Shown piece by piece: positions 17,601 to 27,474 of a stretch of DNA of 27,474 nucleotides (position 1 is the first letter of the stretch; the number at the start of each line of letters is the position of its first letter). The notes beneath the pieces were generated by a model. The model ran no database searches and had not been told where the DNA came from. It saw only the letters and a list, made by a program, of their open reading frames with translations. A program made the translations under genes and the position numbers. Source of the DNA: a virus; IMG/VR virus record IMGVR_UViG_3300006870_000065, positions 1-27,474 of that record; one strand, 5' to 3'.

Positions 17601-18263
17601 ATTGTCTCTTACAATAGACTGAGTTCTTCTTACACAACAAAAGTTGTCTCCATATCCATCATTTCTAGACTCAAAATAATATCCATCAAACTTATCAAAG
17701 ATACCATACTTTTTGATAGCTGGATTTCTTACAGCAAAAAAGTTTGTATCGTTAGGATCGTATGTATAAGGTGCTCTATTTACTCTAACACCAAATGTAG
17801 CAGCAGAAACACGTCCTGGTTGATATCTAAAAAATCTCTTTGAAGTTAGAACAGCATATTCATCTGCTGGTGCTTCAATAAGAGCACCTGCTTCTTCTGC
17901 GATATGAGTGAGACCCCAATCCTGATCTCCACCATACCCAGCATACTTCTCTAGTAATGTAGTTCCATCAGATTCATATTGATTTAGAGTAGAGAACTGC
18001 TCAGGAAATGCTGTCCACTCAGAAGGGTTTACATCATATGTGTTTACGTCCGCAAAAATACCAAGAGCAACTTCAGAACGAGGAATACCAAGCAAAGAAA
18101 GAGCAACTTCAGATTGCTGTTTATTCTGTTCTGCTACAGGAATTGCAGACTGATCGCTAGCGATTACAACTGGAATTGATCTTGCCGATGTTTGTTGTCC
18201 TGCAGGAACTGGGGCAGTTCTTCCAACGACAACAACCGAAGAATTATTATTTACAGCTGCCAT
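14613..18263 (-). CDS. Large virion structural protein (1216 aa), paralogue of the 1519 aa protein
   Basis: The N-terminus includes ARSIPVVIASDQSAIPV, a phrase common near the start of tailed-phage structural proteins. Shared blocks with the 1519 aa neighbour: LGIPRSEVALGIFADV near 58, FRYQPGRVSAATFGVR near 143, VTMYKIEFSWYGAVGA and GEARWVRLH near 735-770, YGASYYIDGGDRGT near 826, and FDYNKD...ICASSKS near the C-terminus. The spacing differs, consistent with insertions or deletions after duplication. A perfect TATAAATA late promoter lies 27 bases before the ATG. The next gene starts three bases after its stop, so both are probably on one late transcript. Confidence 0.85.
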   Translation of the reverse strand: MAAVNNNSSVVVVGRTAPVPAGQQTSARSIPVVIASDQSAIPVAEQNKQQSEVALSLLGIPRSEVALGIFADVNTYDVNPSEWTAFPEQFSTLNQYESDGTTLLEKYAGYGGDQDWGLTHIAEEAGALIEAPADEYAVLTSKRFFRYQPGRVSAATFGVRVNRAPYTYDPNDTNFFAVRNPAIKKYGIFDKFDGYYFESRNDGYGDNFCCVRRTQSIVRDNPLPYGTGSREQTEDYVWVGVPQVESNSPTYPNAYEVLKANRRYLQEVAVGTIDPTAFDGLDDGSGSSEAEKCRRDSGLVIDGLLHDLKYGGNASTVYNTLRFFNTNDPTNIQLYLDNPQFEIDRYQAIKDAITTIFSGETPAAITGITDIPGLTTVTAKPAGTNLPSVESGSDAVVNSLIDILRTALDNGGQYSSIPEPVGSAAGEMCVIRDGLVLTHAAAHDTSLLKEKVNYDVVNLFNDGNSTNWLEIQVPSGKELLRVGQSFYFNKNGSAENILDTSSDKLPDGSIWFVSAIRDIIVSGDGVFQQVRFSKNPSNEEVYTSVGGGDTANSSNPWTGNDNPAYAEIEVFDIQTATNIQTAGFTLQTPTPFLLPSDGRAYRGSNYTDGSLNDQPNSFSDGCFPYLYPSGGADDPNSVGYIDSTTTDTTTLKSQINYVNKRLYKNWVWFNVDPVYYKVYEYRVPRTRFSGEKLNGIETPIVYSDNVIDKKAGDPVVEETTGEQLQLDSVWDLDPTKVTMYKIEFSWYGAVGAIFLAYVPVDNGEARWVRLHHIRASNQLKVASLGNATLPITYLTYGGGSQNRYGYRNSTRDPNNASGYGSYSEQLVKYGASYYIDGGDRGTVRLFSYASETLKPIGGSKYLIKSSTNSSLFANRATKLNVTPGATYVNAPALTIVDTNGGPLISDYYINARVITGDPTDQDVRVVWAEGNLLYLSRGINASSGDISLVVDRPQPLIGVKCRREINGVRNRVQIYPTRLSTGLTSNSESLVVELIKSPIFQTFVNPGAGASISINDKINIGKRGKKVLLPSADITLTGTYLQDGEKIYGYFRYTVEGDTSGQALTTLGLLQREGSDYYFAANEVTLEEINIRGSFLPAGRWSGPNPSDPDLSSITDPFFTSTLSRLSGVLIDTEQRSPIPGTGTKITTLFTPNSGEEYELQAYFDYNKDYLSFPLTDLVDSLYICASSKSFYNDEGGTNTYIDRGEILASLTWEEQ

Positions 18264-18289: not shown

Positions 18290-18297
18290 TATTTATA
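18290..18297 (-). promoter_or_regulatory. Late promoter, perfect TATAAATA
   Basis: The - strand reads TATAAATA, the T4 late consensus without mismatch, in the 44-base gap between the 956 and 1216 aa genes and 27 bases before the ATG at 18263. It is well placed to drive the 1216-1519-1057-471 aa gene row. Confidence 0.75.
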
Positions 18298-18307
18298 ATT
18301 AGACTTA

Positions 18308-21178
18308 CTAGCGAACCGATATGATACCTCTGGCAATAACAAACTTGTTTCTCTTCTGGAAATAACCACCCCCAGAACCAGTTGTAGTAGCTACGGGAAG
18401 AGCAAAAGGAGTTAGATTTCCATTTAATGAATTTTGCTGGTATGCTCTTAGTATTAGTTTTGGTTGCAACCCTGCGGAATTTTTATCAACTATTTGCCAA
18501 ACATCAAAAGGTTGCGATGCAAATGCCAAAGGATACTCATGTCCCAATAACTTCACATAGTCTCCAATTATAAATGATTTGTAAATATTGTCATCCAGTA
18601 TGACAATTTCATATGGATTAGTTATAACACTATTGTCTGGAAGAGTATAACTTGCCAGTTGCTGTCCCCCATCAATTACAGTAATGATATCACTTCCTAC
18701 ATTATCATAATCTATTCCAGAAATTTGATAAACAGTATAAGAGTTAATAGTTCTTTCTGGAATTATGTTACTACTACCTGAAGAAATTTGGAATTGTACT
18801 TCTCCAATAGTAACATCATTAATAGGTAAATTATCTCCATCAACTGGAACATAATATTGGAACAAAGGATTTCCACCAGAAGTTATTGGATTTTCAAAAT
18901 CAACTGTTTCTAATCCATTCGCAACAGAAGCAGTATAAACATCAAAATTCAAGATGGTGTTTGAAAGATCTTTCGGTACACCAAATTCCTGATATGAATA
19001 TACAGGAGTTTGAGAATTAGCATTTCTTATTACTGAAATATTAACTCCATCATAATCACTATCATATAAATCTGCTACAGGAATAAACTCATCTGCTGGA
19101 CCAAGAATAACGTTATTCAAAACGTCAGTATTTACAGATCCAAATACCTTGATTCCTGATCCACAATTTCTAATAGTAGATCCATTTACAACAATAACTT
19201 TTCCTGTAGTAAAATCTAATGCCCCAGGATAATTTCTAAATACAGATCCTGTAATAGTAAGGTTCTCGCAGTCCGATAGTAACAAACAATCTGTCTCGTA
19301 TCTTTCTGTGTCGCACCCATCAAAGAATGTAGATGTTGATATTGATAGGTTTGTAGAACCTTCTGCAAATAGTGCAGGTCCAGGACTATTTCTAATCTTT
19401 ACATTTTGAATAGTAACGAAATCACTATTAGGGAATGATAAAAGTGTATTGTTTGTTTCAACACCAATATCACTAAAGTCATATAGAATTTGATTCTCTA
19501 CATTACCATCAATAACCAAATCCTTTAGAGTAAAATTAGATATTTTCCAGTCAATAGGGGAACCTGATGCGTTGAAATTTTTTCCAATAAGCAAAGAATT
19601 CTTTACACCATCTAAGTTAGATACATTTATTTTCTCAGTTGACCAATATTGTTTCTTGAGAATAGTAGCATCGTCCAATCCGCTTAGGGAGAATCCATCA
19701 GGGATTCTCAATTGATCAATTAGATAAGTACCTCCAGGCAAGAACAAGAAGTTTACTCCAGTATTACTCAAAGAATCAATCGCATTCTGCAGAGCCTCAG
19801 TATCATCATGATATATCTCAGTAATATAAACTTCTGCTCCTGGTATATCTGTTCCTGGTCTCAATCCAGGAACATCAATTATAAAAGATCCTTCTGTTCT
19901 ATTGAAATCACGAATACTTCCAGTAGTCCATCCTCTCTTTTTAGCGATGGGAGGATTTAGAGGGAAATGAACTGTTCCTGCTTTGTATGTTCCATCTTGA
20001 TTTTTTCTAGTCCATGGTGTGAGATCATATTCACCATAATCAATATACTGAGAAAACAAACTACCACTTACAAACTCTTTTGGACCTAGTGCAGCAATCA
20101 AATCAAATGGTTCATTTGATCCGTTATTTATTAATCCAGTAATTGCATCAGCTGAAAGACTTTCCGTAGTAAATATTCCTCTGTAAACTAATACGCCTTC
20201 ATTTGAACTGTTTCTATTGATATTCAGAGTATTGAAGTTTGCTTCATTCATCTGATCAACAGATACATTATTAATTGGTGTAGTATAAACATTATAAGTT
20301 CCTACATCACCAGTCAATAGAGAATAAGGAGCAAATGCATATACATACCATGATTTCGGAATTTCATCATTCAAAAATAACTCATTTTCAAATGAAGGAA
20401 CGGCAGTATTTCCAGTTACAGTTCCAGGTAGACTATTAGTTTCTGTGACAGAAGCGTTGAAAATTTTTATGTTTTGACCAGGATCAAAATTATTAATATC
20501 AGATTGGTTTTGTAAAGTTACCCTCAAATAAGTTTGAGAATTTTCAACCACAAAGGAAGTTGAATCTACCAAATACCCATTTGGATCTGCAGAAGCTCCA
20601 AATTGCTTTGCAACATCATATACAGTTTCAGTTGGAAGTAAGAAGTTATAAAAATTAGTACCATCATTAGTGAACTGCCACTTTTCACTATCAGAGTTAT
20701 ATAAAAGCTTTCCCGCAGTACCACCCGAAATCAATTCACCAAATATAGTTAAATTTCCAGATGAAACAATTGTGTTAAAAGTTACGTCAGATGTGGTTAG
20801 TATATTTTGTGCTAAGGTTAGGGTAATTGTATCGTCATTACCACTAATAGAAATATTAGTGTCTCCAGTTATTGTTACATCATCAGTAATGCCTGGGTTC
20901 GATCCACCAGAGGTCAATCGTAGTACTCTGGAATTACTTACTTCTGTAGTTGCAGATGAAATAGAATATGTTGTGTTTAAATCTTGAGGATCTAACCACG
21001 CAACACCAGTACCTGTTGAAGTTAGAACTTTTGAAGTGTCTCCAGATTCCCCATCTTTATCAAGTAGTGGTCCCCCGAGACTTAAGTTTTTTCCTACAGG
21101 TATCGTAAGTCCTTGAAGGACTTCAACAGGACCATTATTGCTTAAGTTCGTTAGTTGATCTGTCTTTACTAGGGACAT
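18308..21178 (-). CDS. Tailspike-like fibre protein with right-handed beta-helix region
   Basis: 956 residues. Residues 1-160 have repetitive fibre-shaft-like sequence (SGDTSKVLTSTGTGVAW, TGDTNISISGNDDTITLTL). At about 465-700 the pattern DDTEALQNAID ... FLPGGTYLI ... LKDLVIDGN ... VTIQNVKIRNSPG ... LTITGSVFRN ... VIVVNGSTIRNCGSGI is that of pectate-lyase-type parallel beta-helices found in phage tailspikes. A third region (about 720-956) is beta-rich and may trimerise or bind. Beta-helix spikes commonly bind or cleave surface polysaccharide; whether this one is enzymatic cannot be told. A perfect late octamer precedes it. Confidence 0.8.
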   Translation of the reverse strand: MSLVKTDQLTNLSNNGPVEVLQGLTIPVGKNLSLGGPLLDKDGESGDTSKVLTSTGTGVAWLDPQDLNTTYSISSATTEVSNSRVLRLTSGGSNPGITDDVTITGDTNISISGNDDTITLTLAQNILTTSDVTFNTIVSSGNLTIFGELISGGTAGKLLYNSDSEKWQFTNDGTNFYNFLLPTETVYDVAKQFGASADPNGYLVDSTSFVVENSQTYLRVTLQNQSDINNFDPGQNIKIFNASVTETNSLPGTVTGNTAVPSFENELFLNDEIPKSWYVYAFAPYSLLTGDVGTYNVYTTPINNVSVDQMNEANFNTLNINRNSSNEGVLVYRGIFTTESLSADAITGLINNGSNEPFDLIAALGPKEFVSGSLFSQYIDYGEYDLTPWTRKNQDGTYKAGTVHFPLNPPIAKKRGWTTGSIRDFNRTEGSFIIDVPGLRPGTDIPGAEVYITEIYHDDTEALQNAIDSLSNTGVNFLFLPGGTYLIDQLRIPDGFSLSGLDDATILKKQYWSTEKINVSNLDGVKNSLLIGKNFNASGSPIDWKISNFTLKDLVIDGNVENQILYDFSDIGVETNNTLLSFPNSDFVTIQNVKIRNSPGPALFAEGSTNLSISTSTFFDGCDTERYETDCLLLSDCENLTITGSVFRNYPGALDFTTGKVIVVNGSTIRNCGSGIKVFGSVNTDVLNNVILGPADEFIPVADLYDSDYDGVNISVIRNANSQTPVYSYQEFGVPKDLSNTILNFDVYTASVANGLETVDFENPITSGGNPLFQYYVPVDGDNLPINDVTIGEVQFQISSGSSNIIPERTINSYTVYQISGIDYDNVGSDIITVIDGGQQLASYTLPDNSVITNPYEIVILDDNIYKSFIIGDYVKLLGHEYPLAFASQPFDVWQIVDKNSAGLQPKLILRAYQQNSLNGNLTPFALPVATTTGSGGGYFQKRNKFVIARGIISVR

Positions 21179-21212
21179 AATTTCCCGTCAATTATAAACT
21201 TCTATTCTTTTG

Positions 21213-21220
21213 TATTTATA
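21213..21220 (-). promoter_or_regulatory. Late promoter, perfect TATAAATA
   Basis: The - strand reads TATAAATA 34 bases before the ATG at 21178 and three bases past the 3' end of tRNA-Gly. The octamer is also part of an inverted repeat (21192-21198 TTATAAA with 21215-21221 TTTATAA), so in read-through RNA it would form the 5' arm of a 7-bp hairpin next to the tRNA. Confidence 0.75.
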
Positions 21221-21223
21221 AAG

Positions 21224-21294
21224 AGCGGACAACGGGGATCGAACCCGTGATTCAAACTTGGAAGGATTGCGTGTTACCGCTACACTATGTCCGC
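21224..21294 (-). tRNA. tRNA-Gly (anticodon TCC)
   Basis: 71 bases forming a full cloverleaf on the - strand. The acceptor GCGGACA pairs perfectly with TGTCCGC; the D-arm is GTGT/ACAC; the anticodon loop CTTCCAA gives UCC, which reads GGA; the T-arm is ACGGG-TTCGATC-CCCGT. The discriminator is U, as usual for bacterial-type tRNA-Gly. One T-T mismatch occurs in the anticodon stem. The 3' CCA is not encoded. Confidence 0.93.
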
Positions 21295-21560
21295 AAGTGG
21301 AGGGATGTCACCCCTCCGTGCTAGGCTCGCCACCTGTTTTAGTTCAGTTGCAAAACAGGAAATCAACCACACGGAAGGGGTTTTACCACCACAATTTTTT
21401 GACTGGAAATTGTAAACCAGGCGGGAGAGAGTCCCATCCGCACCACTTGCTCTTTAGAGAAGCAAGAAACTCCAGGGGTCATAAGACCATCCCGACCAGT
21501 GCTGTTAACGTCCATCCGTGACGGGCATATCGGGGATGACTCCACCAGGATAAGTTTATA
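21295..21560 (-). ncRNA. Candidate structured noncoding RNA / structured leader of tRNA-Gly
   Basis: About 265 bases with no convincing gene. G+C over 21301-21540 is about 52 percent by hand count, clearly above the AT-rich neighbours. On the - strand consecutive hairpins can be drawn: CATCCCCGA with TCGGGATG; GGTC/GACC; CTTGCT/AGCAAG; GGGACTCTCTCCC; ACAATTT/AAATTGT; CCTGTTTT/AAAACAGG; GGAGGG/CCCTCC, the last immediately before tRNA-Gly. A late-promoter-like ACTAAATA lies just upstream. Short ORFs on both strands here look accidental. It resembles no RNA family I can name and has no T-loop, so it is not a tRNA or tmRNA. Confidence 0.4.
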
Positions 21561-21578
21561 GTCATTCCAGGACTGAGG

Positions 21579-21586
21579 TATTTAGT
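21579..21586 (-). promoter_or_regulatory. Late-promoter-like ACTAAATA
   Basis: The - strand reads ACTAAATA, six of eight matches to TATAAATA, overlapping the TAA stop of the 79 aa gene. Transcription from it would cover the structured stretch and tRNA-Gly. Position fits, but the element is weaker than those at 18290 and 21213. Confidence 0.35.
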
Positions 21587-21821
21587 CAAACTTACGATAG
21601 GCACCTACCTCAGGATCTGGATCCAACCACTTAACATACTCAGGGTCTTCAAGGCAGGTGTCAAGTTGCATTTGATTATCAAGATAATACATGTCAGTAT
21701 AACGTTTAGTCCATTCGTTGAATTTTTGAATGCGGTAATCAGGTTTACCATTGATCTCTAGCAAACCACACTGCACATAACGATAAGGAGAACGTTCAAG
21801 AATAACGATGGGTTTGATCAT
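21582..21821 (-). CDS. Hypothetical protein (79 aa)
   Basis: Its ATG overlaps the TGA of the Phd-like gene (ATGA), so it is probably translated by coupling; no separate ribosome site is visible. The protein is Tyr/Asp/Glu-rich, acidic at the C-terminus (LDPDPEVGAYRKFD), soluble and Cys-poor. Its place directly after an antitoxin-like gene is where a toxin often sits, but it shows no RelE/YoeB, Doc or PIN motif and I do not call it a toxin. Confidence 0.7.
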   Translation of the reverse strand: MIKPIVILERSPYRYVQCGLLEINGKPDYRIQKFNEWTKRYTDMYYLDNQMQLDTCLEDPEYVKWLDPDPEVGAYRKFD

Positions 21822-22024
21822 GAGGCATCATCGTGCTGACTGAATATATTATACCAGTCTTCCTCTCCCACTTGTTCTGCTAGGTGTTCCAGTTCTCCAA
21901 CTGGCACAGCAACGACTGCTTTACCATCTTGGTTTCTAATCAAAAACTCTTCACCTTCATTTTCAATAAGGTCCATATACTTATCAAAATTTTTCTCAAA
22001 ATCTTCAACGCTTACTTCGGTCAT
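21818..22024 (-). CDS. Phd/YefM-like antitoxin-domain protein
   Basis: 68 residues from the ATG at 22024, chosen because it overlaps the glutaredoxin TGA (ATGA); an upstream in-frame ATG at 22075 shadows that gene. The sequence follows the Phd/YefM pattern: V-S-V-x-x-F at residues 4-9, a helix with a regularly placed Tyr (DKYMDLIE), then FLIRNQDGKAVVAVPV, matching the ITR.GKPVA.L strand of the family, followed by a helical acidic tail where the toxin-binding region normally lies. Family members repress their own operon and neutralise a toxin. No toxin is recognised next to it. Assignment is by pattern only. Confidence 0.65.
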   Translation of the reverse strand: MTEVSVEDFEKNFDKYMDLIENEGEEFLIRNQDGKAVVAVPVGELEHLAEQVGEEDWYNIFSQHDDAS

Positions 22025-22266
22025 GGCACACAACAAATTTCTTTTTCTTGCATATAACGAATAGATTCTTGACAACCTCCTAAATGAATGTCATCAAGAA
22101 CAATTTGTGGGAAGGTTGATCCTTCACCAAACTCTGAGTAAAATTCTTCAATTGTAAAATCTTCATCCAGTTTATAAACAACATGCCGAAGATCTTCATG
22201 TTCTACAATTGCGATAAATTTTTCGCAATAGAAACATCCTGGTTTTGAATAGATTGTGAATGCCAT
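22021..22266 (-). CDS. nrdC: Glutaredoxin (NrdC-type)
   Basis: 81 residues from the ATG at 22266 (MAFTIYSKPG); the longer open frame upstream runs into tRNA-Pro and is not coding. The redox motif C-F-Y-C is at residues 11-14 after the first beta strand, and STFPQIVLDD carries the cis-proline, followed by a GG turn, all as in glutaredoxins. T4 NrdC (87 aa) has similar length. It would donate electrons to the ribonucleotide reductase encoded a few kilobases upstream on the same strand. No clear Shine-Dalgarno precedes the ATG; an AT-rich hairpin (22270-22296) lies in the short leader. Confidence 0.88.
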   Translation of the reverse strand: MAFTIYSKPGCFYCEKFIAIVEHEDLRHVVYKLDEDFTIEEFYSEFGEGSTFPQIVLDDIHLGGCQESIRYMQEKEICCVP

Positions 22267-22269
22267 AGA

Positions 22270-22296
22270 TGTGAATAAAAAATTATATATTTCACA
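22270..22296 (-). other. Hairpin directly 3' of tRNA-Pro
   Basis: TGTGAA and TTCACA can pair as a 6-bp stem with a 15-base AT loop. It lies two bases past the tRNA-Pro 3' end and four bases before the nrdC ATG. It could act in tRNA 3' processing or in nrdC translation; stability is modest. Confidence 0.3.
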
Positions 22297-22298
22297 AG

Positions 22299-22369
22299 TC
22301 GGGGCGGCAAGAATCGAACTTGCATTTCTGCTTCCCAAAAGCAGCGTGATACCATTTTACTACGCCCCG
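22299..22369 (-). tRNA. tRNA-Pro (anticodon TGG)
   Basis: 71 bases on the - strand. The acceptor CGGGGCG pairs with CGCCCCG; the anticodon stem CTGCT/AGCAG closes the loop TTTGGGA, giving UGG (codon CCA) with the G37 usual for tRNA-Pro; the T-arm is GCAAG-TTCGATT-CTTGC; the discriminator is A. CCA is not encoded. It is separated from tRNA-Ser by three bases, so the two are probably cut from one precursor. Confidence 0.93.
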
Positions 22370-22372
22370 AAG

Positions 22373-22458
22373 AGGAAGAAGTGGGATTTGAACCCACGGA
22401 GGCTATTAACCTCTCCAGTTTTCAAGACTGGTGCAATCAACCGCTCTGCCATTCTTCC
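22373..22458 (-). tRNA. tRNA-Ser (anticodon TGA)
   Basis: A class II tRNA on the - strand. The acceptor GGAAGAA pairs with TTCTTCC; the anticodon stem CCAGT/ACTGG closes CTTGAAA, giving UGA (codon UCA); the long variable arm is GAGG-TTAATAG-CCTC; the T-arm is GTGGG-TTCAAAT-CCCAC. The discriminator base is U, whereas bacterial tRNA-Ser normally has G73. The first 22 bases also encode the end of the 68 aa gene upstream. Confidence 0.9.
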
Positions 22459-22643
22459 TTGTATTTGAATTGTTGTTCTAGATCATACACCAACTTGTGG
22501 TGTTCTGTCAAGACATAATATCCTGTAAGATCTTTTCCATCATCACACCAACCATATCCAATTACCTTTTCGTTTATATCTTGTAAGTCTATTTTTTTGT
22601 CAGTATTTAGATAGTGGTTGAAGTTTTGGTGGAGATTGATCAT
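22437..22643 (-). CDS. Hypothetical protein (68 aa) ending inside tRNA-Ser
   Basis: The ATG shares one base with the preceding gene's TAA (TAATG), indicating coupling. The product is soluble with several aromatic residues (GYGWCDDGKDLTGYYVL). Its last seven codons and the TGA lie within the acceptor and D-arm of tRNA-Ser, so mRNA and tRNA share sequence. Function not recognised. The single-base coupling to a well-formed neighbour favours a real gene. Confidence 0.65.
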   Translation of the reverse strand: MINLHQNFNHYLNTDKKIDLQDINEKVIGYGWCDDGKDLTGYYVLTEHHKLVYDLEQQFKYKEEWQSG

Positions 22644-22894
22644 TAGCGTTCCTCAAAATCAAGTTTGCGGACCTTACGTTTCCTTCGGTCCTCTTGGTAT
22701 TTTAGGTCAGCATTTGATAACATAGGTTGTTTCTTCACAATCTTTTCAGAATTGAGCAATAGAACTTCAGACAAATCTAATGCTGTAATTTTGTCTGCTG
22801 TAACTGTAGTCATGTTGGGACAACCACAGCATCTAGTTTTGATTGGGTGAGCCACGAGCTCTTTGCCACATAAGCGGCATCTTACAGATAACAT
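22643..22894 (-). CDS. Small zinc-ribbon-like protein
   Basis: 83 residues. C6-x2-C9 and C22-C23-x-C25 make a probable four-cysteine metal site (CRLCGKEL then RCCGCPN), followed by a hydrophobic beta/helix section (TALDLSEVLLL) and a strongly basic C-terminus (EDRRKRKVRKLDFEER). Nucleic-acid or protein binding is plausible for such a layout, but no family is claimed. It begins 29 bases past tRNA-Val and is coupled to the 68 aa gene after it. Confidence 0.75.
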   Translation of the reverse strand: MLSVRCRLCGKELVAHPIKTRCCGCPNMTTVTADKITALDLSEVLLLNSEKIVKKQPMLSNADLKYQEDRRKRKVRKLDFEER

Positions 22895-22904
22895 TTTTCA
22901 ACTT

Positions 22905-22922
22905 TTAACCTCTAGAAGTTAA
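22905..22922 (-). other. Small hairpin directly 3' of tRNA-Val
   Basis: TTAAC and GTTAA can form a 5-bp stem with an 8-base loop that touches the tRNA-Val 3' end. An alternative pairing, AACTT with AAGTT, uses nearly the same bases. It is weak alone but matches the pattern at the other tRNA 3' ends. Confidence 0.25.
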
Positions 22923-22994
22923 TGGGCGATGAGGGATTCGAACCCCCGACCAATTGCGTGTAAAGCAACTGCGCTACCGCTGCGCTAATCGCCC
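22923..22994 (-). tRNA. tRNA-Val (anticodon TAC)
   Basis: 72 bases on the - strand. The acceptor GGGCGAT pairs with ATCGCCC; the D-arm is GCGC/GCGC; the anticodon loop TTTACAC gives UAC (codon GUA); the T-arm GGGGG-TTCGAAT-CCCTC has one G-U pair; the discriminator is A. CCA is not encoded. Its first ten bases also encode the last codons and the TAG of the 48 aa gene. Confidence 0.94.
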
Positions 22995-23131
22995 TTTTTA
23001 TATTGTTCCAACTTAATCCAGTTGATCAGAGTGTTAATCTCTGTCTTGTCACCATCATTCTTGACGAATGAATTATAATATTCTAGTGCTCTGATCGTAA
23101 GTTCACGATCTCTTTTAGAAAGTAATGACAT
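22985..23131 (-). CDS. Very small hypothetical protein (48 aa) ending inside tRNA-Val
   Basis: Reading the - strand from the ATG at 23131 gives a 48-residue protein starting MSLLSKRDRELTIRALEYYN and ending WIKLEQYKKGD. It is highly charged and likely two-helix, with natural-looking composition. The TAG stop is the TAG of GGGCGATTAG at the start of tRNA-Val. The gene fills the gap between tRNA-Leu and tRNA-Val that is otherwise unexplained. Function unknown. The same stop-in-tRNA arrangement is seen at tRNA-Ser. Confidence 0.6.
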   Translation of the reverse strand: MSLLSKRDRELTIRALEYYNSFVKNDGDKTEINTLINWIKLEQYKKGD

Positions 23132-23133
23132 GG

Positions 23134-23153
23134 TTTCAACTAGTAAGTTGGAA
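23134..23153 (-). other. Hairpin directly 3' of tRNA-Leu
   Basis: TTTCAACT and AGTTGGAA pair as an 8-bp stem (one G-U) around a 4-base loop AGTA. It abuts the tRNA-Leu 3' end with no spacer and ends two bases before the 48 aa ATG. It is the strongest of the tRNA-adjacent hairpins. Confidence 0.4.
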
Positions 23154-23235
23154 TGTCGCTGAAAGGACTTGAACCTTCATGCCTCTCGGCACATGAGCCT
23201 AAATCATGCGTGTCTACCAATTCCACCACAGCGAC
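23154..23235 (-). tRNA. tRNA-Leu (anticodon TAG)
   Basis: 82 bases, class II, on the - strand. The acceptor GTCGCTG pairs with CAGCGAC; the anticodon stem CATGA/TCATG closes TTTAGGC, giving UAG (codon CUA); the variable arm is TGCC-GAGA-GGCA; the T-loop is TTCAAGT; the discriminator is A, as usual for leucine. CCA is not encoded. Its 5' base directly follows the encoded CCA of tRNA-Arg. Confidence 0.94.
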
Positions 23236-23311
<76 letters not shown>

Positions 23312-23317
23312 ATAAAA

Positions 23318-23334
23318 GTGGGGACTATGCCCAC
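23318..23334 (-). terminator. Possible hairpin terminator or processing hairpin before the tRNA run
   Basis: The - strand reads GTGGG CATAGTC CCCAC followed by TTTTATG, a short GC stem with a small T run. It spans the stop codon of the lysozyme gene and ends seven bases before tRNA-Arg. A stem of only 5 bp makes efficient termination doubtful; tRNA 5' processing is an alternative. Confidence 0.3.
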
Positions 23335-23939
23335 ACTAGTTTTTTAGAATAATCGTATGCATATTGCTCACGATAACCTTTGATTCCCCATCCCAACCAA
23401 TAATAGGCAGGAACCATATATTGAGAGACTGTCCATCCACTACCCTCAAATTCTGGTAGGACTTTTTGAAATTGTGATTCGTTAATCATGTAACGAACTT
23501 GTCCTTCAAGACTACTCGGATCACAACCATATTTATTACAGAATGACCCAAGACCTCTATAGCGATTTATAGAGGTCCACTGGATCAATCCATATCCTCC
23601 AACGTAACACTTATCATAAGAAACTCTTGCTCCACCTTCGCAAATATCAGATTTGAAATTGGATTCAGATTTGATATTACCCATGATGGTTGCAAGGGCA
23701 TTACGATCAGAGATTTTAGTTTTCTCTTGAAGTTGTTCTAGAACGTACTTTTCGTTTTCGTTACAAGTAGGACACTTCCAATCCTTTACTTCAATTACAA
23801 TAGGTTCTACAACTTTCTCAACAACCTCCTCCACAACTTCAACAGCAGGAGGAGGATTATCAATCTCACTAAGTGTGGGATACGCACACGCAGCGGGGAT
23901 CAAAGTAAGTAGTGGTAAAACAAATAGTTGTCTAAGCAT
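23325..23939 (-). CDS. Exported phage tail-lysozyme-type muramidase
   Basis: 204 residues. A signal peptide (MLRQLFVLPLLTLIPAACA) is followed by a Pro/Glu/Val linker at about 29-52, a CPTC pair at 56-59, and a catalytic domain from about 64. This has the hallmarks of the phage tail lysozyme family (Pfam Phage_lysozyme2): ALATIMGNIKSESNF with Glu92 as likely catalytic acid, then GGYGLIQWTS and RYRGLGSF. The reaction would be cleavage of peptidoglycan glycan strands. The leader implies export to the periplasm, which suits lysis more than a virion-borne lysozyme; the Cys in AACA could alternatively be a lipid anchor, though Pro at -3 is non-standard. The ATG lacks a clear ribosome site. Confidence 0.8.
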   Translation of the reverse strand: MLRQLFVLPLLTLIPAACAYPTLSEIDNPPPAVEVVEEVVEKVVEPIVIEVKDWKCPTCNENEKYVLEQLQEKTKISDRNALATIMGNIKSESNFKSDICEGGARVSYDKCYVGGYGLIQWTSINRYRGLGSFCNKYGCDPSSLEGQVRYMINESQFQKVLPEFEGSGWTVSQYMVPAYYWLGWGIKGYREQYAYDYSKKLVWA

Positions 23940-23973
23940 TTGGATTAGTAGAATTCAACATTCACCTCTTGCC

Positions 23974-24435
23974 TCAAGGCATGGGTGACTCAAAGTAGTC
24001 TTTGCGGTAGTAACGTCCGAGGATGTTGCTATTATAGTATGCAGGGGTGCCGTCTGTCAAGCGTTCTGTCAGGACATCGTGAAGAAACAATTGTCTCGTT
24101 TCTTCATAATTCACTCTACCTGGGGTGGAGTGTAAGGATAGTATCTCTCTAGTAAAAGATTCTCGTCCGTATTGTTTAACATCTGCTGAAAGCTCTGGAC
24201 AAGACCCATAGTAGTTACGCCAGTTGCTTTCAGATGTAACTCTTCGCCGTTTGACAGTTTTATCCGTACATCTAGGCTTTCGTTTTTGCCAGAAGTACTT
24301 GCGTCCGATGTATTGTCGGTTGGTGACTTTACAGGCAATAAGGTAAACAAAGCCGTAGTTGTCCCCAATATCACTCCCGTCAAACACCCTGCCACAATAG
24401 GTCCAGGGATTTGGATATTCTTTACTCTCTGCCAC
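23974..24435 (-). CDS. SegE-like GIY-YIG endonuclease
   Basis: 153 residues. The nuclease motif is GFVYLI at residues 28-33 and YIGRK at 42-46, followed by the basic stretch YFWQKRKPR, the family-typical NWRNYYGSC (71-79), VKQYGRESFTREIL (86-99) and NYEETRQLF (109-117), which supplies the probable catalytic Glu. This matches the free-standing SegE-type GIY-YIG enzymes of T4-like phages, which cut double-stranded DNA and spread with their flanks. The start appears to be GTG at 24435, 16 bases beyond the nearest AAGGAG, so initiation may depend on upstream translation. Almost all of the N-terminal two-thirds is also open in a second frame. Confidence 0.85.
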   Translation of the reverse strand: MAESKEYPNPWTYCGRVFDGSDIGDNYGFVYLIACKVTNRQYIGRKYFWQKRKPRCTDKTVKRRRVTSESNWRNYYGSCPELSADVKQYGRESFTREILSLHSTPGRVNYEETRQLFLHDVLTERLTDGTPAYYNSNILGRYYRKDYFESPMP

Positions 24436-24443
24436 AATTTCAT
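24111..24443 (-). CDS. Overprinted ORF: possible small membrane protein (110 aa)
   Basis: This reading frame lies on the same strand as the SegE-like gene but shifted, sharing 325 bases. Its ATG at 24443 overlaps the TGA of the 61 aa gene (ATGA) and has AAGGAG eight bases upstream, a better start than the nuclease has. The product has a basic N-terminus, a transmembrane segment at about residues 13-37 (GPIVAGCLTGVILGTTTALF), a Ser/Thr linker, and a soluble part with DVRIKLSNGEELHLKATG. It looks like a natural protein, but the nuclease frame is the one with known homology, so this ORF may still be accidental. Confidence 0.4.
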   Translation of the reverse strand: MKLWQRVKNIQIPGPIVAGCLTGVILGTTTALFTLLPVKSPTDNTSDASTSGKNESLDVRIKLSNGEELHLKATGVTTMGLVQSFQQMLNNTDENLLLERYYPYTPPQVE

Positions 24444-24625
24444 AACGATCTCTCCTTATTTATTCGTTGCCAATTTGCTGCTGCATCATTCCAATCACCT
24501 TCCCATGGATCTGGAAAGATATTTTTTTCAGGTTCTCTCTCAGAATCTGAGAGAGATTCAACCTTAGATATATAAGTATCTTCTTTTTTAGAGTTGGAAA
24601 CCAGCGAAAGTATCTTTCTTAACAT
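24440..24625 (-). CDS. Hypothetical protein (61 aa) between nrdB and the GIY-YIG gene
   Basis: The ATG at 24625 is the only plausible in-frame start near the end of nrdB; the gene overlaps the nrdB 3' end by 38 bases. A GGGAG about 13 bases upstream may serve as ribosome site. The product is short, charged and acidic in the middle (KVESLSDSEREPEK), with an aromatic C-terminal part (DPWEGDWNDAAANWQR). The TGA overlaps the next ATG. Function unknown. Confidence 0.6.
   Translation of the reverse strand: MLRKILSLVSNSKKEDTYISKVESLSDSEREPEKNIFPDPWEGDWNDAAANWQRINKERSL
24452..24457 (-). promoter_or_regulatory. Shine-Dalgarno AAGGAG shared by two overlapping starts
   Basis: AAGGAG stands 8 bases before the ATG at 24443 (membrane ORF) and 16 bases before the GTG at 24435 (SegE-like nuclease). 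The spacing strongly favours the ATG. Confidence 0.6.
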
Positions 24626-25778
24626 CTTGTTTAATAGCTCCCATAAGATATGATTCAACCTCTGTTTCTTGGGGAGCGACTTGCATACTCTTGGAAGATA
24701 ACCAGTGTTCTGTCCAGGGGAGAGGATTGTTAGATACTGGAGTATCAAAGATTGCCTTGAGACCGATAGATCTCAGACGACGATTGGCAGTCCATTCAAC
24801 ATATTTAGAGAGCAATTTATCATTCAAACCGATGATAAAACCATCTTTGAACGGTAGATACTCTGCCCAGAGTTTCTCTTCTTCTACACACTGACGGAAC
24901 ATGTCATAGACATTTTCCTCTTCTTCCTTGGCGATTTTTGCCATGTCAGGATCATCGCCCTCCTTCCATTTATTTAGAATGTTCTGAGTGATTGTCATGT
25001 GTTGACTTTCATCTCTAGCAATAAGACCGATGATTTTGGCAGATCCCTCCAGGAGTTTAAGTTCGCCAAAGGCGAAACTACATGCAAACGAGACGTAGAA
25101 TCTAATTCCCTCAAGAATGTAGACATTAGCAACCGCTCTGTAGAGTTTTCTCTTGAGTTCATAAAGTTCCCATTTAGCAGAATCAACTTGTTCTAATGCT
25201 TGTTCCCAACGATTACCAGCACCCCACTCCTGTGCTGCTTGTAAGAATTCATCATACGCTTTAGTTACAGACTGTGCTCGTGAGAGGATCTTCTCGTCGT
25301 CTAGAATCTTGTCAAAGACTTCAGAAGGGTCAGCATACACATTCTTGATGATATGCGTGTAGGAGCGACTATGGACCATCTCCATGGTCTGCCAGATGTT
25401 CATGGCACCCTCAAGCTCGGGTAGACTGCAGTAAGGCATGAAAGCCATACCAGGACCACGACCTTGTACAGAGTCCAAGAGAATTTGGTACTTAAGGTTT
25501 GACGTGAAAATGTGTTTCTGAGCATCATTTAGAACCTGATAATCTGCACGATCTTTTTGAAGTGATACTTCTTCAGGACGCCAGAAGTATCCTAGTTGTT
25601 GCTGTGTAAGTTTATCAAATACAGGATACTTGAACTTATCATAACGCTGGACCCCCAGCGGGGGTCCGAAGAACATCTTTTGTTTTGTGCTGTCAACTTT
25701 ATTCGTATTGAATACAGTCATTCCTTCTACTTGTGTTGGCATGTAATTACTATCAGTTCTAAATTTTGCAGCTGTCAC
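24588..25778 (-). CDS. nrdB: Ribonucleotide reductase class Ia small subunit
   Basis: 396 residues, full length. It houses the diiron-tyrosyl radical cofactor that generates the radical for NrdA during NDP-to-dNDP reduction. All ligands are in place by comparison with E. coli NrdB: D102 (in LLDSVQGR), E133 and H136 with radical Tyr140 (E-M-V-H-S-R-S-Y), E223 (LEGIRFYVSFACS), E257 and H260 (RDESQH). The C-terminus ends FAGFQL, the tail that docks into NrdA. The start is GTG at 25778 with GGAGG nine bases upstream; an internal ATG at 25742 lacks a ribosome site. It overlaps the nrdA 3' end by 20 bases, so the subunits are coupled. Confidence 0.96.
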   Translation of the reverse strand: MTAAKFRTDSNYMPTQVEGMTVFNTNKVDSTKQKMFFGPPLGVQRYDKFKYPVFDKLTQQQLGYFWRPEEVSLQKDRADYQVLNDAQKHIFTSNLKYQILLDSVQGRGPGMAFMPYCSLPELEGAMNIWQTMEMVHSRSYTHIIKNVYADPSEVFDKILDDEKILSRAQSVTKAYDEFLQAAQEWGAGNRWEQALEQVDSAKWELYELKRKLYRAVANVYILEGIRFYVSFACSFAFGELKLLEGSAKIIGLIARDESQHMTITQNILNKWKEGDDPDMAKIAKEEEENVYDMFRQCVEEEKLWAEYLPFKDGFIIGLNDKLLSKYVEWTANRRLRSIGLKAIFDTPVSNNPLPWTEHWLSSKSMQVAPQETEVESYLMGAIKQDVKKDTFAGFQL

Positions 25779-26859
25779 AATCTTCTTCCTCCGTTGTAAA
25801 GATATCGTCTAACAGATCTTGAATAGATGCTTTCTTTTCTTCTGTGAGTTGTGGTTCATCTGTCTTATTATCATATGTGTTCTGATAGTAAGATGTTTTC
25901 CAACCATACTTATAGGTCTTCAAAAGATCACCTGCCATAACAGAAACTGGCACTTCATTATTCTCATAGTTCTCTGGATTGTAACTCCAGTTTCCTGAAA
26001 TTGCTTGGTCAAAGAACTTTTGCATGGCAGCAACAACTTTGATATAACCATCGTTGTCTTTCATGTCCCAGAGAAGAGTGTAATTATTCTTGAGACTACC
26101 ATACTGAGGAACGATTTGCTTGAGTGGTCCTTTCTTTGATTTCTTAACGGACATGTATGCTCTAGGTGGTTCAATTCCATTTGTTGCGTTTGACACAACG
26201 GAACTGCTCTCCGATGGCATCTGTGCGGACAACGTACTATGTCGCAGTCCATATGTTTGAATCTCGGTACGTAGAGTTTCCCAATCATAGTTCAACTCTT
26301 CTCCACAGAACTCATCAATATCACGCTTGTAAGTGTCAATTGGGAGGATGCCATCAGCATACTTGGTGCGAGAGAAATATTCACATGCACCTTTCTCCTT
26401 GGCAACTGCGTTACTGGACTTGAGTAGATAGAACTGGAAAGCTTCAGACAAGTCATGAACAAGTTTCCATGCTCGTGAGTCATCATAGTGTTCTCCTTGC
26501 TTGGCAAGATAGTGTGCTAGACCGATATAACCAACACCGAGAGAACGGCGAGCAAGAGTGCTAATGCGTGCTGCTTCAACAGGATAATCTTGATAGTCAA
26601 TCAGTTCTTCCAAACCACGAACTGCTAGATCACAAAGGTTTTCCAACTCATCAAGTTTGTTGATCTTGCCAACGTTGATAGCAGATAGAATGCAGAGAGC
26701 AATCTCACCTTCCCCATCAATATGCTGAAGAGGAGTTGTTGGAAGAGTAATCTCCTGACAATTATGAACTAGAATATCATTTGCGAAGAAATTATGAGTT
26801 CCTTCTACAGTAATATCATAAACTGGAATTTCTTCTTCAAGATATTCAATCTTTAACAT
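25759..26859 (-). CDS. nrdA: Intein C-fragment fused to the C-terminal part of ribonucleotide reductase large subunit
   Basis: 366 residues. Residues 1-33 are an intein C-terminal fragment (MLKIEYLEEE, then VYDITVEGTHNFF and NDILVHN) with the splice signature His32-Asn33 and +1 Cys34. Residues 34-366 are the C-terminal half of class Ia NrdA: C34-x-E36 equals E. coli C439/E441, C56 (ALCILSA) equals C462, STLSAQMPSESSS and NATNGIEPPR are conserved barrel segments, YYQNT holds the radical-transfer tyrosines, and C361-x2-C364 is the swinging redox pair. The ATG has AGGAG at ideal spacing. The N-terminal half of NrdA and the intein N-part are not in the window and should lie upstream on the - strand. 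Activity requires splicing with them. Confidence 0.92.
   Translation of the reverse strand: MLKIEYLEEEIPVYDITVEGTHNFFANDILVHNCQEITLPTTPLQHIDGEGEIALCILSAINVGKINKLDELENLCDLAVRGLEELIDYQDYPVEAARISTLARRSLGVGYIGLAHYLAKQGEHYDDSRAWKLVHDLSEAFQFYLLKSSNAVAKEKGACEYFSRTKYADGILPIDTYKRDIDEFCGEELNYDWETLRTEIQTYGLRHSTLSAQMPSESSSVVSNATNGIEPPRAYMSVKKSKKGPLKQIVPQYGSLKNNYTLLWDMKDNDGYIKVVAAMQKFFDQAISGNWSYNPENYENNEVPVSVMAGDLLKTYKYGWKTSYYQNTYDNKTDEPQLTEEKKASIQDLLDDIFTTEEEDCDSCKI
25788..25792 (-). promoter_or_regulatory. Shine-Dalgarno GGAGG for the nrdB GTG start
   Basis: GGAGG nine bases before GTG 25778, inside the 3' end of nrdA. It decides the start in favour of GTG over the ATG 36 bases further on. Confidence 0.65.
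26761..26859 (-). mobile_element. Split-type intein C-terminal fragment (IntC) in nrdA
   Basis: 33 codons with intein blocks F and G: YDITVEGTHNFFANDILVHN ending His-Asn before Cys. A C-part of this length beginning with its own Met is the usual size for natural split inteins. Established phage precedents have nrdA, nrdJ and gp41 split this way with a nuclease gene between the halves. Confidence 0.85.
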
Positions 26860-27474
26860 TTTTTTCTCCTATTTTGTTCTAAAAGTTGTTTAGCAAGTTT
26901 TCTTTGAGTTTCGTCTCTATAATATGGATTATACATCAATCCAGTTTGCTCTTCAATACATTTATAAAAGTTTTGATGGTTTCCCCCAAATCTGTTTTTG
27001 GAAAAATGTTTTGGAAACTTTATATTCAATTCATTAAGAGCAAACTCAACTGTTCTTTTTCTTCCGCCAATAAATCCATATTTTTTAGCAAACTTTACTC
27101 CTATTTCTATAAGTTGTTCATCAGTAAGTCCAGAATAGTTTGGATTATTATAACCAGTAGTTCTTACAGAAATATTGTTTCTCCACTCTTCCTGAACCTT
27201 TTGTGAGCATCTGGGAAGCATCCAACCACCAGTTCCACCTGCAGTAGCATTATAACCTTTTTTAGTATCACTCTCAAAAAGTTTGATAAAGTGAGATTCC
27301 TTTTCATTAATAAAGTTTGCATCTTCAGTTTGATAAGTTTCAATAACTGATAGGTCCCAACAATCTTCACCATATTTTCTAATTGCAGAGTGAAATCTAA
27401 ATTTAGACCCATTTTTTGCCGATGATAAATGACGATTCCAACGGTGCTCTAAAGAATATTCAGTTTTTCCTATG
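26853..27474 (-). CDS. GIY-YIG homing endonuclease, 5'-truncated by the window edge
   Basis: 206 codons are visible in the frame beginning at 27473; the N-terminal GIY strand is outside. The visible part starts IGKTEYSLEHRW, the YIG strand plus the conserved Arg, then SKFRFHSAIRKYGEDCW, NEKESHFIKLF with the probable catalytic Glu, and KGYNATAGGTGG, all diagnostic of GIY-YIG homing nucleases. A DNA-binding tail follows (GLTDEQLIEIGVKFAKKYG ... NRFGGNHQNFYKCIEEQTG). It ends TAA, in a different frame from IntC and overlapping its ATG. The enzyme would cut intein-free nrdA alleles so that repair copies the insert. Whether it starts on its own or continues from the intein N-part cannot be seen. 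Confidence 0.85.
   Translation of the reverse strand, partial: IGKTEYSLEHRWNRHLSSAKNGSKFRFHSAIRKYGEDCWDLSVIETYQTEDANFINEKESHFIKLFESDTKKGYNATAGGTGGWMLPRCSQKVQEEWRNNISVRTTGYNNPNYSGLTDEQLIEIGVKFAKKYGFIGGRKRTVEFALNELNIKFPKHFSKNRFGGNHQNFYKCIEEQTGLMYNPYYRDETQRKLAKQLLEQNRRKKC
26859..26865 (-). promoter_or_regulatory. A AAA AAA slippery heptamer at the endonuclease/intein junction
   Basis: In the endonuclease frame the codons are AGA AAA AAA TGT TAA, giving a perfect A AAA AAA heptamer. A -1 slip makes the next codon ATG of the IntC frame, fusing the two ORFs. Slippage, by ribosome or polymerase, is possible but unproven; the same run is also where a read could lose an A. Confidence 0.4.
26866..26870 (-). 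promoter_or_regulatory. Shine-Dalgarno AGGAG for the IntC-NrdA ORF
   Basis: AGGAG followed by six A bases and then ATG 26859. This ideal spacing supports independent initiation of the intein C-part and hence a genuinely split gene. It lies in the last codons of the endonuclease. Confidence 0.7.

Follow-up and report, generated by a model that had tools for sequence, protein, structure and literature searches.

A fractured nrdA gene with a split intein and a GIY-YIG nuclease gene in a viral contig, and other states of the same site in related phages

INTRODUCTION

Fractured genes, in which split inteins are found together with free-standing endonucleases, were reportedly named by Dassa et al. 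in 2009; half of their loci are said to carry a Vsr-like nuclease, and the abstract of that work is said to describe gene control elements arriving with the nuclease and to propose the loci as a missing link in the making of split inteins. Here we describe a locus of this kind in IMG/VR virus record IMGVR_UViG_3300006870_000065, the whole of which (27,474 bases) is referred to as the window. At its right end, on the minus strand, the C-terminal half of the ribonucleotide reductase (RNR) gene nrdA is fused to an intein C-part (IntC), with a GIY-YIG nuclease open reading frame (ORF) upstream. As in the genes of Dassa et al., a phage enzyme gene is broken by a split intein and a separate nuclease gene lies between the parts; in contrast to them, the nuclease is of the GIY-YIG family, and the same site is also available in nuclease-free, cis-intein and empty states. 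From sequence comparison, the window nrdA is very probably a fractured gene mended by protein trans-splicing, accompanied by a late-expressed homing GIY-YIG nuclease. The arrangement is of a known kind, to which we add a set of allelic states, a scar and two types of transfer footprint. Split inteins are widely used tools, and their derivation from cis inteins has mostly been argued from single examples.

In ocean data, a later study counted 7 nrdA and 2 nrdJ fractured cases (PMC3653736). A GIY-YIG putative homing endonuclease intervenes in the fractured nrdHF gene of AceL NrdHF, which like the window has a broken RNR gene with a GIY-YIG gene between the parts, and is split at the usual homing endonuclease site (PMC7891396). 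It differs in that nrdHF encodes the beta subunit and carries a class 3 intein with Ala1 and an IntC of 48 aa, whereas the window has nrdA, a class 1 intein (Cys1) and an IntC of 33 aa. With AceL NrdHF already on record, the pairing is not unprecedented, and the view of a first-pass annotation of the window that a GIY-YIG enzyme at a split-intein site is unusual does not hold; in this lineage it is the rule. By sequence, the closest solved intein is the NrdJ-1 split intein (PDB 8ubs; E=4.6e-22), which comes from metagenomic split inteins and differs in RNR class and in the gene of insertion.

For the nuclease, a close comparison is I-TevI of the T4 td group I intron, which has a GIY-YIG catalytic domain and a hairpin and late promoter before its gene (PMC2988022). 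I-TevI differs in being intron-borne, in its C-terminal DNA-binding part and in having its ribosome-binding site sequestered, whereas the window-type nuclease has no clear Shine-Dalgarno (SD) sequence. A hairpin covering the start signals, together with a promoter arrangement, is described for T4 I-TevI, I-TevII, I-TevIII and segB and for Aeh1 mobE, and the late transcripts of I-TevI lack the 5' arm of the hairpin (PMC2988022).

RESULTS AND DISCUSSION

The two halves of nrdA and the split intein

In the window, a 366-aa ORF with an ATG start (26859-25759, minus strand, as are all window features below) consists of a 33-residue IntC (MLKIEYLEEEIPVYDITVEGTHNFFANDILVHN; 26761..26859) followed by NrdA from residue 33 on. 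The NrdA C-half (the C-extein, 25759..26760) scored 216 bits against PF02867 (profile 210-522). The IntC matched the C-terminal end of the intein splicing domain, PF14890, with 33.0 bits (profile 125-155 of 155), just below the cut-off of 35.8. Uninterrupted NrdA homologues continue straight through the position of the +1 Cys, the first codon of the C-half (26760-26758). By direct reading, an SD sequence, AGGAG, precedes the gene at 26866..26870. The nuclease ORF lies upstream in a different frame (26853..27473, residues 19-224 of 224, with the 5' end beyond the contig end); truncated at 27474, it matched PF01541 with 28.6 bits. The two ORFs overlap by 7 nt, ATGTTAA (26853..26859), in which the start codon of IntC and the stop codon of the nuclease can be read directly, and translational coupling through this overlap is possible. 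The first-pass annotation had described the 33-residue IntC with its own Met and AGGAG, fused to the NrdA C-half, and a GIY-YIG ORF directly upstream and out of frame, and both descriptions are borne out here.

To recover the missing half we scanned viral contigs with the nuclease sequence, which returned 80 loci (loci are cited below by L numbers; the contigs are metagenomic assemblies). Contig IMGVR_UViG_3300034375_003655 (L002/L083) is 99.98% identical to window 20762-27474 over 6.7 kb and extends further upstream. Its order is NrdA N-half, intein N-part (IntN), stop, a 59-nt spacer, the complete nuclease gene (224 aa; L002:1527-2201) and IntC fused to the NrdA C-half with the junction HN|C. 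The N-half ends ...KVNMSNL and is followed by a 119-aa IntN (CVAGDTKIEIRYVKPQYDDVGEVCGEELFDENIQIKELEPYIGNDNGVEVLSYDVETGEKKWKPITAFAETSPKAKVMRITDEESGKSIVVTPEHQVFTKNRGYVMAKDLTENDELVIN) and a stop, placing the intein insertion point at SNL|C. The IntN starts at Cys1 (CVAGDTKIEI...), contains block B as VTPEHQVF and ends ENDELVIN. It had been proposed that sequence beyond 27474 would hold an NrdA N-half and an IntN, with Cys1 and block B, closed by a stop before the nuclease; this is what precedes the nuclease in the near-identical contigs, and neither an uninterrupted nrdA upstream nor an absence of IntN before the nuclease was seen in them. The IntN (39.8 bits) and the mini-intein of L149, in which N- and C-parts are joined (67.4 bits), both score above the PF14890 cut-off.

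The complete arrangement, in the same order, was found at 54 distinct loci (L002/L083 and 53 others). Cys1, TPxH and HN|C are present in 54/54, so that every locus has the features of a class 1 intein (Cys/Ser1, block B TxxH, C-terminal His-Asn, and +1 Cys/Ser/Thr). Likewise, at all 54 a stop precedes the nuclease, which starts with ATG and is 220-240 aa long, IntC has an ATG start with GGAG no more than 20 nt before it, and the stop codon of the nuclease falls beyond the start codon of IntC. The nuclease is in the IntC frame at none of the 54; at each it is a free-standing endonuclease ORF between the intein parts, with its own start and fused to neither. Such regularity is not a product of chance. 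The nuclease had a median pN/pS of ~0.15 and the conserved part of IntN one of ~0.17, so both are maintained under purifying selection, as is IntC.

The +1 Cys in the motif SNL|C is the residue that we take to be the catalytic radical cysteine of class I RNR (equivalent to E. coli Cys439). Since the intein lies between SNL and this cysteine, the +1 residue of splicing would be the enzyme's essential cysteine. In the mechanism that we propose, a class 1 split intein interrupts NrdA between SNL and the active-site Cys. The N-half would be translated as NrdA-N::IntN and the C-half as IntC::NrdA-C, the latter from its own SD and ATG overlapping the nuclease stop. The intein parts would then associate and splice in trans, by an N-S acyl shift at Cys1, transfer to the +1 Cys and Asn cyclisation, to give a scarless NrdA with its radical cysteine restored.

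Matches to the NrdA barrel in five contigs of this type (56-133 kb) were to the two halves only, and no second nrdA was found in these contigs, which are genome fragments; it is thus fair to infer that NrdA is made only through trans-splicing. The uninterrupted NrdA homologues come from T4-like phages of marine Synechococcus (S-H9-1 and S-RSM4, for example), which points to a cyanophage-like virus with cyanobacteria as the probable host group. Among cellular genomes, 36 pattern matches included no relative by tblastn. Among cultured phages, no nrdA-borne copies of the GIY-YIG nuclease were found, the best matches having <50% identity; the single genomic context inspected among these matches was that of a free-standing gene.

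The spacer and control of the nuclease

In nearly all loci, 54-61 nt separate the IntN stop from the nuclease. The L002 spacer folds into a hairpin (-26.3 kcal/mol, z -8.4) whose 3' arm extends to the nuclease start codon. In an alignment of the relatives, 95% of pair cells were paired with the hairpin correctly placed, versus 42-49% when it was slid by 1-3 columns. Inside the loop, ATAAATA is present in 53/54 loci, mostly as TATAAATA, a T4-type late -10 sequence. At the sequence level, then, a hairpin covers the nuclease start and has a putative late promoter in its loop, a layout which the I-TevI type of control logic fits by analogy. On read-through transcripts from nrdA, the nuclease start would be buried in the hairpin; transcripts started late from a promoter at TATAAATA would be without the 5' arm, and the nuclease would therefore be made late, when DNA for homing is plentiful.

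By count, there was no excess of TATAAATA in the window (2 found versus 2.8 expected). Each of the two sites (18290-18297 and 21213-21220) has a long tail-type ORF beginning 27-35 nt downstream of it, at 18263 and 21178 respectively, a placement that matches expectation for T4-type late promoters.

A cultured T4-like phage, Yersinia phage vB_YenM_TG1 (KP202158; L272:1208-4855), has nrdA split at the same SNL|C by homologous IntN and IntC. Before its nuclease is a hairpin, TGATGCTCCTTATAAATAATTAAAAAGGAGCATCA, unrelated in sequence, with TATAAATA in the loop and an SD in the 3' arm. TG1 differs in that the nuclease is annotated as HNH and the IntC start is GTG; its record shows two alpha subunits, with the intein unannotated. 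This is evidently the same hairpin and late-promoter layout with another nuclease family, and TG1, being cultured, offers a system for testing the model.

The nuclease protein

Residues 6-96 of the nuclease match the I-TevI catalytic domain (profile E=1.5e-6), and the complete protein scored 44.8 bits against PF01541. Its predicted structure, of modest confidence (mean pLDDT 71, pTM 0.40), matched the I-TevI catalytic domain (1mk0) with E=1.0e-4 and a TM to target of 0.75. The equivalents of I-TevI R27, E75 and N90 are R29, E77 and N93, invariant in 18 relatives. The C-terminal half is predicted, with moderate confidence, to be helical, and a PDB match to it was not found. The gene between the intein parts is accordingly a putative homing endonuclease of the I-TevI type.

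Other states of the site and mobility of the element

In related phages this one nrdA site is found empty, with a cis mini-intein, and split with or without the nuclease, alongside footprints of DNA transfer. The intein-free state (A) occurs in many contigs and in cultured cyanophages. An intact cis mini-intein (state B) is found in L149, where a 161-aa intein lies in one frame with NrdA (925 aa in all), in L166, L169, L179, L181, L189, L212 and L213, and in more contigs from a later scan. In state C (L164, L172 and others), a cis intein is accompanied by a second insertion ~15-20 codons downstream that holds another GIY-YIG-like ORF. State D is a split intein minus the nuclease: in L220 the IntN stop is followed by TTTATAGGAAGTGTAATTTCT, which represents the nuclease hairpin's 5' arm, and next come AAGGAGAGAACAAAATG and IntC. 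This is evidently the scar of a nuclease deletion that left half of the hairpin. A wider pattern search for such scars recovered L220 alone, so that the hairpin-remnant state is represented by one contig. State E is that of the window, a split intein with a nuclease.

We observed that the second nrdA break of state C (L164:3529-4581, L172:3526-4632, L159:3487-5561) leaves a foreign tail, ...GGVLYDHE, and that L164 and L172 have the GIY-YIG-like ORF at the break. Neither an intein nor an Rfam intron was found at this break in the three loci, which resemble the genes-in-pieces case of Aeh1. Nuclease-free split inteins, as adjacent IntN and IntC ORFs, were also seen in more distant RNR genes (L292, L301, L306, L307, L337).

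Two pairs of loci carry transfer footprints. L018 and L020 share 1.2 kb with zero mismatches, running from IntN through the spacer and nuclease to IntC; identity continues for only 25 nt on the upstream side of the element and 41 nt on the downstream side, and the exteins beyond differ at 71/450 nt (16%) and 134/450 nt (30%). Evidently the element was transferred as a whole, together with short tracts of co-conversion. Between L030 and L031, the nuclease is identical, identity begins within the hairpin and stops 8 nt past IntC (with 2 IntC mismatches), and the IntN differs by ~35%, which identifies a transfer of hairpin, nuclease and IntC into an allele with a different IntN. More generally, the median synonymous difference was 0.72 for the N extein and 0.67 for the C extein, versus 0.34 for the nuclease and 0.37 for IntC. 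In the comparison of L220 with L017, IntN identity was 87% versus 65% for the N-extein. The nuclease gene thus moves between alleles, presumably driven by its specific cleavage of recipient DNA; between diverged phages it would spread the entire element in some cases and just its cassette (hairpin, nuclease and IntC) in others.

We lean, with some reservation, towards the view that hairpin, nuclease and IntC together form an autonomous mobile cassette. Such a cassette would invade contiguous nrdA mini-inteins and make split inteins of them through the stop, promoter and start codon that it carries, would move between alleles with unrelated IntN, and when lost would leave behind a scarred split intein free of the nuclease (L220). 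The inferred order of events is that cassette insertion turned B into E and that cassette loss turned E into D. Rather than an ancestral cis intein, L149 may be an E allele that was re-fused after nuclease loss; its linker, IIQKKKVLKIEY, is closer to the nuclease-bearing form than to other cis inteins (NEKTSTLIIEY). If the cassette is autonomous, the lineage is a live record of split-intein making and of the origin of nuclease-free orphan split inteins. In any case, the relatives appear to display nearly every step of the element's origin, spread and nuclease loss, and they supply dozens of new split inteins in which IntN is diverse and IntC nearly constant.

Alternative explanations

Several points weigh against a trans-spliced NrdA with a late, mobile nuclease. 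No compensatory changes were found in the hairpin in the alignment of relatives, so it is conserved pairing that argues for it. There is no consensus SD before the nuclease ATG, the 3' arm (CACTTCCTATAATG) holding the start codon region only, which makes I-TevI an imperfect parallel. Most of the hairpin and promoter-like site is lost in L222. The composition of the element may lower synonymous differences somewhat. Finally, by analogy with Aeh1 NrdA, the halves might associate without splicing.

This last point leads to a genes-in-pieces explanation, in which NrdA is a non-covalent assembly of two polypeptides, like that following the Aeh1 mobE insertion, and the intein parts are relics. The split NrdA of Aeromonas phage Aeh1 is indeed active without splicing (PMC2988022), and the second break in L164 and L172, downstream of the intein, is intein-less. 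However, invariant splicing residues (Cys1, TPxH and HN|C at all 54 loci) are not expected if the halves merely associate, and both IntC and the conserved part of IntN are under purifying selection. Moreover, the break adjoins the radical cysteine, where leftover intein tails would occupy the active site. We therefore consider non-covalent assembly very unlikely.

That the nuclease insertion killed nrdA, leaving a decaying pseudogene, is extremely unlikely: a similar nrdA break in Campylobacter phage CPt10 is annotated as a pseudogene (PMC3653736), but here the frames are open, start signals are present, pN/pS is low in both halves, and the arrangement recurs in dozens of independent contigs. 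In CPt10 itself (FN667789; L347:3401-4960), an IntN (CLAGDTIVE...) closed by a stop precedes two hypothetical ORFs, which are followed by MIKITKKTEKIPVYDIEVKDNHNFFANGLCVHN|CEISVP with its own start; this nrdA looks like a working fractured gene, whose intein is inserted one residue later than that of the window.

A group I intron with its nuclease, misread as an intein, is barely credible, for although GIY-YIG nucleases are frequent in group I introns of T4-like phages (PMC2988022), IntN and IntC are protein-coding and occur joined in one ORF (L149). In L002, L149, L220 and TG1, no Rfam intron model reached its gathering score.

Neighbouring genes

The gene order at the right end of the window is GIY-YIG ORF, IntC-NrdA C-half, NrdB, a small ORF and a SegE-type GIY-YIG gene. 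NrdB (24588..25778; PF00268, E=1.9e-53) is downstream in the same operon. The SegE-type gene (23974-24435; PF19835, E=4.7e-49) is labelled NAD synthetase in PHROG 447, which is probably a misnomer, and similar ORFs sit downstream of nrdB in L079 and L149. A tail lysozyme-type phage protein (23325-23939; PF18013) adjoins the nrd region, and in L002 a cluster of five tRNA genes lies downstream of it (L002:5743-6755).

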